A DNA stretch of 32,848 nt from Actinomycetota bacterium (GTDB taxonomy: Bacteria > Actinomycetota > Thermoleophilia > Gaiellales > Gaiellaceae): the NCBI GenBank assembly GCA_020029595.1, contig JAIBJN010000019.1:1-32848 (forward strand). The letters are read 5' to 3'. The notes beneath the pieces are model-generated. The model was given only the letters and a program-made list of their open reading frames with translations. It had not been told where the DNA came from and searched no databases. How positions within the stretch are numbered: the first letter of the stretch is position 1; every line of letters begins with the position of its first letter. The position numbers and the translations under genes are program-made. Below are positions 510 to 7,478 of the stretch, piece by piece.

Positions 510-1877
510 CTACAGCTCCAGATCCCGGGCCGCGAAGTGCACGGCCTCGGAGAAGGACGGGAACGGCTGGATCGTGTCGCGGAGGACGTCCACGTTCACC
601 TCGGCGCGGATCGCCAGCGTCAGCTGGCCGATCCACTCGCCGGACTCGGGGCCGACGGCCGTCGCCCCGACGAGCACGCGCCGCTCGGGATCGGCGTAGA
701 GCTTCAGGAGCCCGGGCCGCTTCGGCCGCTGAAACGTGGACGTGCGGGAGACGGACTCGAGCCTCCACGAGGACGTGACCGCGCCCTCGCCGCTCGTGTC
801 ACCTGCCACGGCGACCTGCGGGTCGGTGAAGACGCAGGCGGGGATTGCGCGGTAGTCGGCGCGTGCGCCCTTCCCGGCGACGTTGGCCGCCGCGACGCGG
901 CCCTGGTACTTCCCGACGTGCGTGAAGAGTGCGACGCCGGTCACGTCCCCCGCTGCCCACACGCCTTCCCCGGCCGCGAGGCGCTCGTCGACGGCGATGC
1001 CCCTCTTCCCGATCGTCAGGTCGAGGCGCTCGAGGCCGAACCCGTCCACGTTGGGCTTTCGGCCCGTGGCGACGAGGAGCCGCTCGGCCTCGACGGGCTC
1101 CTCGTCCTCGAGCTCGAGCCGGAAGGGTGCGCCGCCTCCTCCTCCTCCTCCTCCTCCTCCTCCTCCTCCTCCTCCTCCTTCCACGCGGGTCGCCGTCGCG
1201 CCGAGGCGGAGCTCGATCCCCTCCTCCCGAAAGGTCTCGGCGAGGATGTCGGCGGCCTCCGGGTCGACCTGCGGAAGGAGGCGGTCGCCGTTTTGGACGA
1301 GCATCACGCGTGAGCCCAGGCGAGCGTAGACCTGCGCGAGCTCGCAGCCGACGGCGCCGCCGCCGACGACGATGAGGCTCTCTGGGACGGTGCTCGCGCT
1401 CGTCGCCTCCCGGCTTCCCCAGTGTGCGACCTCGGCCAGGCCCTCGACCGGCGGCGCGACCGGTCGGGAGCCGGTGGCGAGGAGGAGCGCGTCGTAGGGG
1501 AGCTCGCGCTCGCCGACCTTGACGAGCCCGGGCTCGGCGACGACGCCCGTCCCGCGCACGAGCGTCGCGCCCTGCTTCCGCACCCACTCCGCCTGGCTCT
1601 GGTCGTCCTTCTCCGCCACCTGGTCCCGCCACCAGAAGACCCGTGCTGCGTCTACGGTGGCGACGGCCTCGGCCGCCCCCGGCGCGAGGCGCGCACGGGC
1701 GACGACCTCGAGCGGCCGCAGGAGCGTCTTCGACGGGATGCAGGCCCAGTAGGAGCACTCGCCGCCGACGAGCTCGTGCTCGACGACCGTGATCTCAGCG
1801 TCCGGATCGAGGCGGGCGAGCGCGGCGAGGAAGGCCTCTCCTGTGGCCCCCGCGCCGAGGACGACGACTCGCTTCAC
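510..1877 (-). CDS. Pyridine nucleotide-disulfide oxidoreductase (dihydrolipoamide dehydrogenase/mercuric reductase-like)
   Basis: A 455-residue FAD- and NAD(P)-dependent flavoprotein of the Lpd/MerA/glutathione-reductase family. It shows the FAD motif VVVLGAGATG (residues 4-13), the redox-active CxxxxC disulfide in GGECSYWACIPSK (C41 and C46), the NAD(P) motif VVGGGAVGCELA (170-181), the ATG motif LLVATGRKPN, and the second FAD motif VWAAGDVTG. The C-terminal dimerisation domain normally carries a His-Glu dyad; here the stretch is PFPSFSEA, with Phe439 in place of the His and Glu444 kept. Residues 234-249 are sixteen consecutive glycines encoded by a GGA microsatellite. The GTG start abuts the TAA of nuoN (TAAGTG), so it is translated as the last gene of the nuo operon. 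The substrate is unknown. It is not next to the 2-oxoacid dehydrogenase genes, so calling it their E3 would be unsupported. Confidence 0.88.
   Translation of the reverse strand: MKRVVVLGAGATGEAFLAALARLDPDAEITVVEHELVGGECSYWACIPSKTLLRPLEVVARARLAPGAAEAVATVDAARVFWWRDQVAEKDDQSQAEWVRKQGATLVRGTGVVAEPGLVKVGERELPYDALLLATGSRPVAPPVEGLAEVAHWGSREATSASTVPESLIVVGGGAVGCELAQVYARLGSRVMLVQNGDRLLPQVDPEAADILAETFREEGIELRLGATATRVEGGGGGGGGGGGGGGGGAPFRLELEDEEPVEAERLLVATGRKPNVDGFGLERLDLTIGKRGIAVDERLAAGEGVWAAGDVTGVALFTHVGKYQGRVAAANVAGKGARADYRAIPACVFTDPQVAVAGDTSGEGAVTSSWRLESVSRTSTFQRPKRPGLLKLYADPERRVLVGATAVGPESGEWIGQLTLAIRAEVNVDVLRDTIQPFPSFSEAVHFAARDLEL
1135..1179. repeat. Trinucleotide microsatellite (CCT)15, read as (GGA)14 in the flavoprotein
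   Basis: Fifteen uninterrupted CCT units run from 1135 to 1179. On the coding (minus) strand they give fourteen GGA glycine codons, followed by two GGC codons. All other glycines nearby use mainly GGC/GGG, so the tract arose by slippage rather than by selection for codons. Changes in copy number would stay in frame and alter only the length of the glycine linker. Confidence 0.97.
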
Positions 1878-4789: not shown

Positions 4790-6694
4790 TCAGGCCACCA
4801 GGAGGAAGACGACTGCGAGGACGGCCAGGCCGACGGCGAGCGCCAGCACGTAGCCGCGCACGCGCCCGGTCTGGGCGGCGGCGACCCGGTCGGAGACGTC
4901 GCGGACGCCGATCCCCAGGCCTCCGAGGGAGCGGAGAACGAGGGGCTCCTCGATCCGCCGTGTTAGCCACGTCGCCAGGCGCGAGGAGGGCTCGTAGAAC
5001 GCGAGGTTGTAGGCCTCGTCGACGTAGAGCTTGTGCTCCAGCGTGCGCACGGCCCCGGGAAAGCGGCGGCGGATGTACGCAGGCCGCTCGCCCGGCCTCC
5101 GGTAGAAGGCCCACGCGACGGCGATGCCGGCGAGCGCCGCCGCGAGCGAGGCGAGGATCGAGAAGACGGCGAGGGCGCCGCTCGCCTCCTCGACGGACTC
5201 GGCCACCGGGTCGATCCAAGTGTCGACTCCCGCCCAGGCTCCGGGGACTTGGAGGAAGCCGCCGACGATCGAGAGGACGCTCAGGACTGCGACCGGCCAC
5301 AGCATCACGACCGGGCCCTCGAAGCGCCCCCGGTGCAGGTGCTCGCGCGCGAAGGCGGACACCTCACCGAAGAAGACGACGAAGAGGAGCCGGAACGCAT
5401 AGAGCGCGGTCAGGAAGGCTCCGACGATTCCGACGCTCCAGAGGATCCAGCCGAGCGACCCGGAGTTTGCGGCGCTCGAGAGGATCGCGTCCTTGGAGAA
5501 GAAACCGGCGAACGGCGGGATCGCCGCGAGCGCGAGCGAGCCGACGAGGAAGGCGCGGTACGTCCAGGGGAGCTCGCGCGCGAGGCCGCCCATGCGGCGA
5601 ATGTCCTGCTCGCCGGAGAGTGCGTGGATGACGAGGCCCGCCGCCATGAAGAGGAGCGCCTTGAAGAAGGCGTGCGTCATCAGGTGGAAGAGGCTCGCGC
5701 CGTAGGCGCCGAGGCCGACGCCGACGAACATGTAGCCGATCTGGCTCATCGTCGAGTAGGCGATCACGCGCTTGATGTCCGTCTGCACGAGCGCGACGAG
5801 CCCGGCGACGAGGAGCGTGACCGCGCCGAGGATCCCGGCGAGGTCCTGGACGTCGACAGCGAGCTCGAAGAGCGGGCTCGACCGCACGATCAGGTAGACG
5901 CCCGCGGTCACCATTGTCGCCGCGTGGATGAGGGCGCTGACCGGGGTCGGGCCCTCCATGGCATCAGGGAGCCACGTGTGGAGCGGGACCTGCGCGGACT
6001 TCGCGACGGCTCCGCCGAGGAGGCCGAGCGCCACGAGCACGGAGAGGGTGCTTCCCTCTCCGAGCGCCTCCGGGGCTTCCGCGAAGACGGTGTCGAAGTC
6101 GAGGGAGCCGATCTGCTGGGCGAGGATGAAGAGCGCGAGGACGAAGGTGGCGTCGCCGAAGGCGTTCATGATGAACGCCTTCTTGCCGGCGTCGACGGCC
6201 TCCCGTCGCCGGTGCCAGAAGTTGATCAGGAGGTAGGAGGAGAGCCCAACCAGGCCCCAGCCGGCCAGAAGCAGGAGGAAGTTCCCCGCCTCGACGAGTA
6301 GGAGCATGGAGAAGACGAAGAACGCCTTGTAGGCGTGGTAGCGCCGCTCCTCCTCATCGCCCGCCATGTAGCCGATCGCGTAGGCGAGGATGAGGAAGCC
6401 GACCCCGGAGACCACGAGCATCATGAAGACCGAGAGCGGGTCGACGAGGATCTCCGCGCCGAAGCGGAGGTCGCCCGCGGTGAGCCAGGTCCAGAGCGTC
6501 GAGACCTCGGACCGGTCCTCGGGCTGCCGCCCGAGCAGGTCGAAGAAGACGACGACCGAGCAGAGGAACGAGAACCCGGTCGCGCCGGCGGCGAGGAGGC
6601 CCGCGCCGCGGCCGTCGATCCGGTTGCCCAGGAGCGCGATCGCCGCCGCGGCCGCGGCGGGCGAGAAGAGCGCGGTCCAGGCGAGGGCGGTCAC
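4790..6694 (-). CDS. nuoL: NADH-quinone oxidoreductase subunit L
   Basis: A 634-residue distal antiporter-like subunit with the long lateral C-terminal helix expected of NuoL. VAKSAQVPLHTWLPDAMEG holds the conserved Lys and His, and IKRVIAYSTMSQIGYM the TM8-9 segment. The C-terminal VDEAYNLAFYEPSS is the usual linker before the last helix. In the TM5 segment, LAGWGLVGLSSYLLINFW reads Gly where the family motif GWEGVGLCSYLL has the conserved Glu. The DNA (GGCTGGGGCCTG on the coding strand) is clean in frame, so this is a substitution and not a frameshift. I chose GTG 6694, four bases after the end of the arginase remnant, because the protein then begins at the first hydrophobic helix; a TTG at 6730 would add 12 polar residues. 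Confidence 0.95.
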   Translation of the reverse strand: MTALAWTALFSPAAAAAAIALLGNRIDGRGAGLLAAGATGFSFLCSVVVFFDLLGRQPEDRSEVSTLWTWLTAGDLRFGAEILVDPLSVFMMLVVSGVGFLILAYAIGYMAGDEEERRYHAYKAFFVFSMLLLVEAGNFLLLLAGWGLVGLSSYLLINFWHRRREAVDAGKKAFIMNAFGDATFVLALFILAQQIGSLDFDTVFAEAPEALGEGSTLSVLVALGLLGGAVAKSAQVPLHTWLPDAMEGPTPVSALIHAATMVTAGVYLIVRSSPLFELAVDVQDLAGILGAVTLLVAGLVALVQTDIKRVIAYSTMSQIGYMFVGVGLGAYGASLFHLMTHAFFKALLFMAAGLVIHALSGEQDIRRMGGLARELPWTYRAFLVGSLALAAIPPFAGFFSKDAILSSAANSGSLGWILWSVGIVGAFLTALYAFRLLFVVFFGEVSAFAREHLHRGRFEGPVVMLWPVAVLSVLSIVGGFLQVPGAWAGVDTWIDPVAESVEEASGALAVFSILASLAAALAGIAVAWAFYRRPGERPAYIRRRFPGAVRTLEHKLYVDEAYNLAFYEPSSRLATWLTRRIEEPLVLRSLGGLGIGVRDVSDRVAAAQTGRVRGYVLALAVGLAVLAVVFLLVA

Positions 6695-6698
6695 GCCG

Positions 6699-7167
6699 TC
6701 ACTGCCTTCCGCTCGCGGCCGCCCGGGCAATGTGCACGAGGAGGTGGACGGCGGTCGGCGGCACCAGTCCTTCGGGATCCGCGCTCGCGTCGTCTGCAGT
6801 CATGGCGGCCGCGCGAATGCGGAATCGCTCTCCAACGGCCTGGATCGTCGCCGCCATGTCCGCGGCGGAGGGCCCGCCCGCGGGCCGCGTCGTGATTCAC
6901 GATCCCCTCGCTGCGGTCGAGGACGTCCAGGTCGAGATGGAGATAGACGTCGGCGACGCGCTCGCGCAAGGCGCCGAGCCTGTTGTTCCAGTAGACATCA
7001 TCGCCGTCCCGCTCCTCACGGGCCAGAACGGCCTCGACCTCGACGTCGTGCCCGGCCTCGCGAAGCGCTTCCGCGGCGCCCGCCTCGAGGATCTTGATCG
7101 GGCCCGCGGCCACGTCGACCCCTGCGCGCCCGAGGTGGTAAGGAGCTTGAATGAGGCTGACGCGCAT
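6699..7167 (-). pseudogene. Arginase-family remnant, internally deleted and frameshifted
   Basis: From the ATG at 7167 the minus strand encodes an arginase-type N-terminus (MRVSLIQAPYHLGRAGVDV, then GPIKILEAGAAEAL). After about 75 residues it jumps to the C-terminal metal-binding segment VYLHLDLDVLDRSEG, which holds the second DxDxxD motif. The middle third, with the first His ligand and DxHxD metal ligands, is missing. At about 6872-6884 the frame breaks: one extra base in a GGG/CCC run moves the homologous continuation GGPSAADMAATIQAVGERF into the next frame. That frame runs to a TGA at 6699-6701, four bases before nuoL. The 469-base length (3n+1) fits a single-base insertion. With half the metal site gone it cannot be an active ureohydrolase. 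It begins 2 bases after the nuoK stop, so it was once a normal member of the operon. A sequencing error could explain the frameshift but not the deletion. Confidence 0.8.
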
Positions 7168-7169
7168 CG

Positions 7170-7478
7170 CTACCCGCTCAAGGTCGTGAGCTTGTCGACG
7201 TCGAGCTCGACGCGCTTCCGGGAGACGGCGACGATGAGGCCGAGCCCGAGCACGGCCTCGGCGGCGGCGACGACCATGACGGTGAGCGCGAAGATCTGCC
7301 CGTCGCCGTTCCCGAGCTGGCGGGAGAAGGCGATGAGGGCGAGGTTCCCAGCGTTCAGCATCAGCTCGAGCGCGAGCAGGATGATGAGCGGGCTCCGGCG
7401 GATGAGGACGCCGAAGGCCCCGGTTGCGAAGAGGACGACCGAGAGGATCAGATACGCGGCGATCCCAGGGCCGAGCAC
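7170..7478 (-). CDS. nuoK: NADH-quinone oxidoreductase subunit K
   Basis: A 102-residue, three-helix membrane subunit of complex I, equivalent to ND4L. The two membrane glutamates of the family are present: E38 in LLALELMLNAGNLALIAF and E74 in VVAAAEAVLGLGLI. The length matches the usual 100-105 residues. The GTG start directly follows the nuoJ stop (TAAGTG), the same arrangement seen between nuoN and the flavoprotein. It is followed 2 bases later by the arginase remnant instead of nuoL. Confidence 0.97.
   Translation of the reverse strand: MLGPGIAAYLILSVVLFATGAFGVLIRRSPLIILLALELMLNAGNLALIAFSRQLGNGDGQIFALTVMVVAAAEAVLGLGLIVAVSRKRVELDVDKLTTLSG

Follow-up and report, generated by a model that had tools for sequence, protein, structure and literature searches.

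The segment at 7167-6699 on the minus strand, which occupies the nuoK-nuoL interval of the window (i.e., the whole 32,848-nucleotide stretch analyzed here), is very probably a pseudogene of an arginase-family (ureohydrolase-fold) gene, and a minority of this bacterial family carry that gene as a co-directional extra member of the nuo operon, at the junction of nuoK with nuoL. Five observations stand directly behind this statement: homology to the arginase family, intact copies at the same site in relatives, a central deletion, a change of frame, and absence of the gene from most relatives. The most likely account is that of a dispensable, ureohydrolase-like operon passenger that was probably inserted once, was repeatedly lost, and is now a pseudogene here; a functional link of the gene to complex I is not favored. 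The locus places an unrelated enzyme gene among the genes for the membrane arm of complex I. Because members of one family have this gene intact, decayed, or not at all, it can serve to illustrate how a passenger enters an important operon, becomes coupled to it, and leaves it again.

A decayed arginase-family gene between nuoK and nuoL

The nuo operon of the window is on the minus strand. Its nuoK (7170..7478) and nuoL (4790..6694; Pfam Proton_antipo_M, 3.5e-82, and Proton_antipo_N, 2.6e-17) are both intact and are separated by about 475 bases. The stop codon of nuoK (TAG, 7170-7172) is followed two bases further on by the ATG of the remnant, whose frame encodes MRVSLIQAPYHLGRAGVDVAAGPIKILEAGAAEALREAGHDVEVEAV..., an arginase N terminus, and runs on into ...LGALRERVADVYLHLDLDVLD. 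Past a short junction, and in frame with this N terminus, lies the DxDxxD segment DVYLHLDLDVLD, which completes the first part of the remnant (6900..7167, minus strand). The second part (6699..6890, minus strand) is the arginase C terminus, AGGPSAADMAATIQAVGERFRIRAAAMTADDASADPEG..., read in a different frame and ending with TGA at 6699-6701; the GTG of nuoL (6692-6694) is four bases on. The remnant is therefore on the same strand as its neighbors with gaps of 2 and 4 bases, and the sequence-only reading was correct, in its coordinates as well, that the operon position was kept.

Neither piece of the remnant has a match in Pfam or NCBIfam, and the gathering score of PF00491 (22) is not reached; we therefore built a subgroup profile from 32 relatives and scanned the whole window with it in six frames. 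Three colinear matches were obtained, to model positions 3-55 (i-E, 7.4e-11), 194-230 (2.6e-8), and, in the other frame, 229-284 (1.7e-11), with no further significant match anywhere in the six-frame scan. Three significant matches in the same order as the model confirm an arginase-family remnant rather than a chance resemblance. Model positions 56-193 (approximately 130 residues) have been lost and replaced by an 8-residue linker, which bears out the earlier description of an N terminus fused to the DxDxxD segment with the metal-binding center gone. The lost middle includes the GxC and DAHxD metal-site motifs. Taking the six metal ligands of arginase as the His of GGDH, the D-H-D of DAHxD, and the two D residues of DxD, four of the six are absent from the remnant, and DLD is kept. 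Conserved residues have also been altered in the parts that remain (DP to DR after DLDVL, and TAYDP to TADDA). Since the genome carries four other arginase-family genes elsewhere, the loss at this site does not remove the family from the genome.

A relative, G011, allows a direct comparison. Its arginase-family gene has both ends beside nuoK and nuoL, on two contigs (L105 and L106): on one, VRITLVQTPYHLGHEAVGMGAGPEALVEAGAAEALVGAGHEVDV comes just a few bases after nuoK, and the contig then ends; the other (JACCXC010000214.1, the nuoL side) starts inside the C-terminal half and continues into nuoL. The remnant has 71% DNA identity to the start of the G011 gene over 125 bp and 73% to its C-terminal half over 194 bp, from which we conclude that the two share descent. 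Together with the subgroup profile, this comparison at the sequence level establishes the arginase-family ancestry that had been proposed for the segment. The assembly break in G011 loses nearly the same central part of the gene that is deleted in the window, which may reflect a deletion that is polymorphic in the population or may be chance.

Could the real gene be intact, with its middle dropped and one base shifted by the assembler? The draft assembly is fragmented (140 contigs), and the G011 assembly is interrupted at almost the same place in this gene, as an artefact of this kind might predict. We nonetheless consider this explanation unlikely. It would need two separate defects as well as the altered conserved residues in the remaining parts, and a single contig of 32.8 kb runs across the junction. 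The single shifted base is a different matter. A one-base shift had been proposed at a G/C run, and the frame does switch between the profile matches at that region (6865..6890, minus strand); the shift could still be technical, either a sequencing or an assembly error. Neither the large deletion nor the altered residues depend on that one base.

Does the remnant still encode something of use? The shift leaves an open frame of 158 codons (6691..7167, minus strand), which could still yield a short product, and the TGA of this frame shares the GTGA overlap with the nuoL start. One might thus imagine a functional short protein in which the 158-residue frame is translated, preserves the coupling between nuoK and nuoL, and has been re-used; its N-terminal part is fairly well conserved relative to G011 (57% over 44 residues). 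Against this idea, the short form occurs in one genome only, the tail beyond the shift matches nothing in the profile, open frames would be common at high GC, and the other genome of the same genus (G001) has nuoK adjoining nuoL without any insert. We regard a functional short protein as very improbable.

Intact copies and the identity of their product

Among 103 genomes of the same family, an intact arginase-family gene lies between nuoK and nuoL in four: G033 and G096, which belong to one genus, and G020 and G126, which belong to another, both distinct from the window's own genus. An intact version at this very junction is what the sequence-only reading had anticipated, and the comparison of nuoK-nuoL spacing that it proposed gave a gap of 60 bp or less in 71 of the 81 contigs carrying both genes, that of G001 among them. 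The intact genes are on the same strand as nuoK and nuoL, with overlaps or few-base gaps on either side: an ATGA, GTGA, or TTGA overlap with the nuoL start in all four and an ATGA overlap with the nuoK stop in three. They are under purifying selection, with dN/dS values of about 0.34 (G033-G096) and 0.49 (G020-G126). At the protein level, G033 and G096 are 59.7% identical for the arginase-family gene versus 93.6% for nuoL, 98.0% for nuoK, and 94.8% for nuoJ. Purifying selection combined with faster change than the nuo neighbors agrees better with a gene that is useful yet dispensable than with a component of complex I.

What does the intact gene encode? The proteins match most of the PF00491 domain and pass its gathering cutoff of 22 (G033, 87.6 bits; G020, 95 bits; C-terminal half of G011, 31.6 bits), and the solved chains nearest to them by sequence are bacterial arginases (2ef4 and 1cev). 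They keep DAHxD and DxDxxD. However, they fall far below the equivalog cutoffs for arginase (TIGR01229, 92.3 and 84.5 bits against 227.6), agmatinase (TIGR01230, 15.9 to 27.8 bits against 174.3), and formimidoylglutamase (TIGR01227, 29.6 to 48.7 bits against 229.15), and a label of arginase or agmatinase is therefore wrong on the tests made. Unlike arginase, the intact copies have a Cys aligned to the first metal-ligand His (GNC, not GDH) and carry TAYDP near the C terminus. GNC or a similar triplet runs across the subgroup alignment in place of the classical GGDHS His ligand; in members of this Cys-for-His subgroup (L053, L054, L081, and L051), the next residue is variable (GNCH, NCF, GNCS, and GGCS). 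The intact copies suggest that there is a subgroup of the arginase fold in which a Cys is a metal ligand. The enzyme DcsB likewise combines the arginase fold with a metal-site Cys. We identified no characterized member of the subgroup by sequence. As far as the evidence goes, the product is best described as a putative arginase-family hydrolase, with no narrower name.

By profile and tree, stand-alone proteins of Rubrobacteraceae, Gemmatimonadales, Acidobacteria, and others (L048, L036, and L040) belong to the same subgroup. Outside the window's family, the subgroup was found only away from nuo: nuoJ, nuoK, and nuoL are absent from the examined flanks of eight such homologues and from the shorter flanks of others.

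History of the junction and the question of complex I

These observations bear on a further suggestion of the sequence-only reading, that the intact gene might be the sign of a tie between complex I and the metabolism of arginine or agmatine. In its broader form, the intact gene would be a partner or regulator of complex I, or a connection between nitrogen metabolism and respiration, and the copy in the window would record the loss of that connection. Retention at the same site in several genera, with start/stop overlaps, and purifying selection in the intact copies are consistent with such a role. In contrast, nearly all relatives have an ordinary nuoK-nuoL junction and lack the gene, the gene evolves much faster than nuoL, nuoK, and nuoJ, its homologues elsewhere are not near nuoJ, nuoK, or nuoL in the examined flanks, and the intact copies score far below the equivalog cutoffs for arginase and agmatinase. 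We therefore regard the arginine or agmatine link as unsupported and judge the broader form highly improbable. It is likewise highly improbable that the Cys-ligand subgroup provides complex I with an accessory that is specific to the lineage, coupled to it in translation, and recently lost here, which might, for example, clear a guanidino inhibitor or tune expression of the distal antiporter subunits nuoL-N.

We favor instead the dispensable passenger. In the arginase trees, the remnant groups with G011 (98/83 and 86/81); G033, G096, G020, and G126 group together with good support; and a weak branch (59/11 and 58/81) unites the six nuo-linked copies. The nuoL tree requires at least four changes in the presence or absence of the gene. 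Given that the insertion point is identical, and that among the relatives found each copy is closest to the other copies, one ancestral insertion followed by repeated loss is the simplest history. This history of one gain and many losses lacks good statistical support, and a few separate entries at the one site may have occurred instead.

In the model that we propose, the gene would have entered between nuoK and nuoL in one event close to the family's base, or in a few events, and would have been expressed through its start/stop overlaps with nuoK and nuoL. Its product would hydrolyze a guanidino- or amidino-type compound in a metal-dependent reaction. The gene would be dispensable and would have been lost many times, although not yet completely in the window's genome. 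The remnant has probably survived because such a deletion is harmless as long as nuoL stays coupled to translation from upstream.

Nuo operons of other bacteria include extra genes that do not encode complex I subunits, and the gene described here resembles these in being an additional gene among nuo genes. Full-text searches of a literature that largely lacks subscription papers turned up no description of an arginase-family gene within a nuo operon. In most of the window's family, nuoK lies directly against nuoL, and a short start/stop overlap joins the two genes in 33 of the 81 contigs. Wider gaps in G002, G013, G027, G084, and G086 were considered as further remnants, and none gave a convincing match to the profile or to the remnant DNA. 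In G002 (L107, G002:C23), the gap is filled by a different 91-residue open reading frame that overlaps the start and stop codons of its neighbors, has no Pfam match, and has no likeness to arginase. The gaps in G084 (L109), G027 (L108), G086 (L110), and G013 (L010) are 82 to 184 bp long. Some of the short junction inserts contain inverted repeats, the clearest in G084 (GGTCGGGCTTCAGCCTGACC...GGTCAGGCTGAAGCCCGACC), and resemble small palindromic repeat elements. In total, the nuoK-nuoL junction seems to be tolerant of insertions.

Elsewhere in the window, a coding region holds a trinucleotide microsatellite at positions 1137-1180, made up of about 15 TCC units that read as GGA on the minus strand. 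The run gives about 17 glycines in an otherwise normal-looking dihydrolipoamide dehydrogenase-like protein (open reading frame 510-1877, minus strand).
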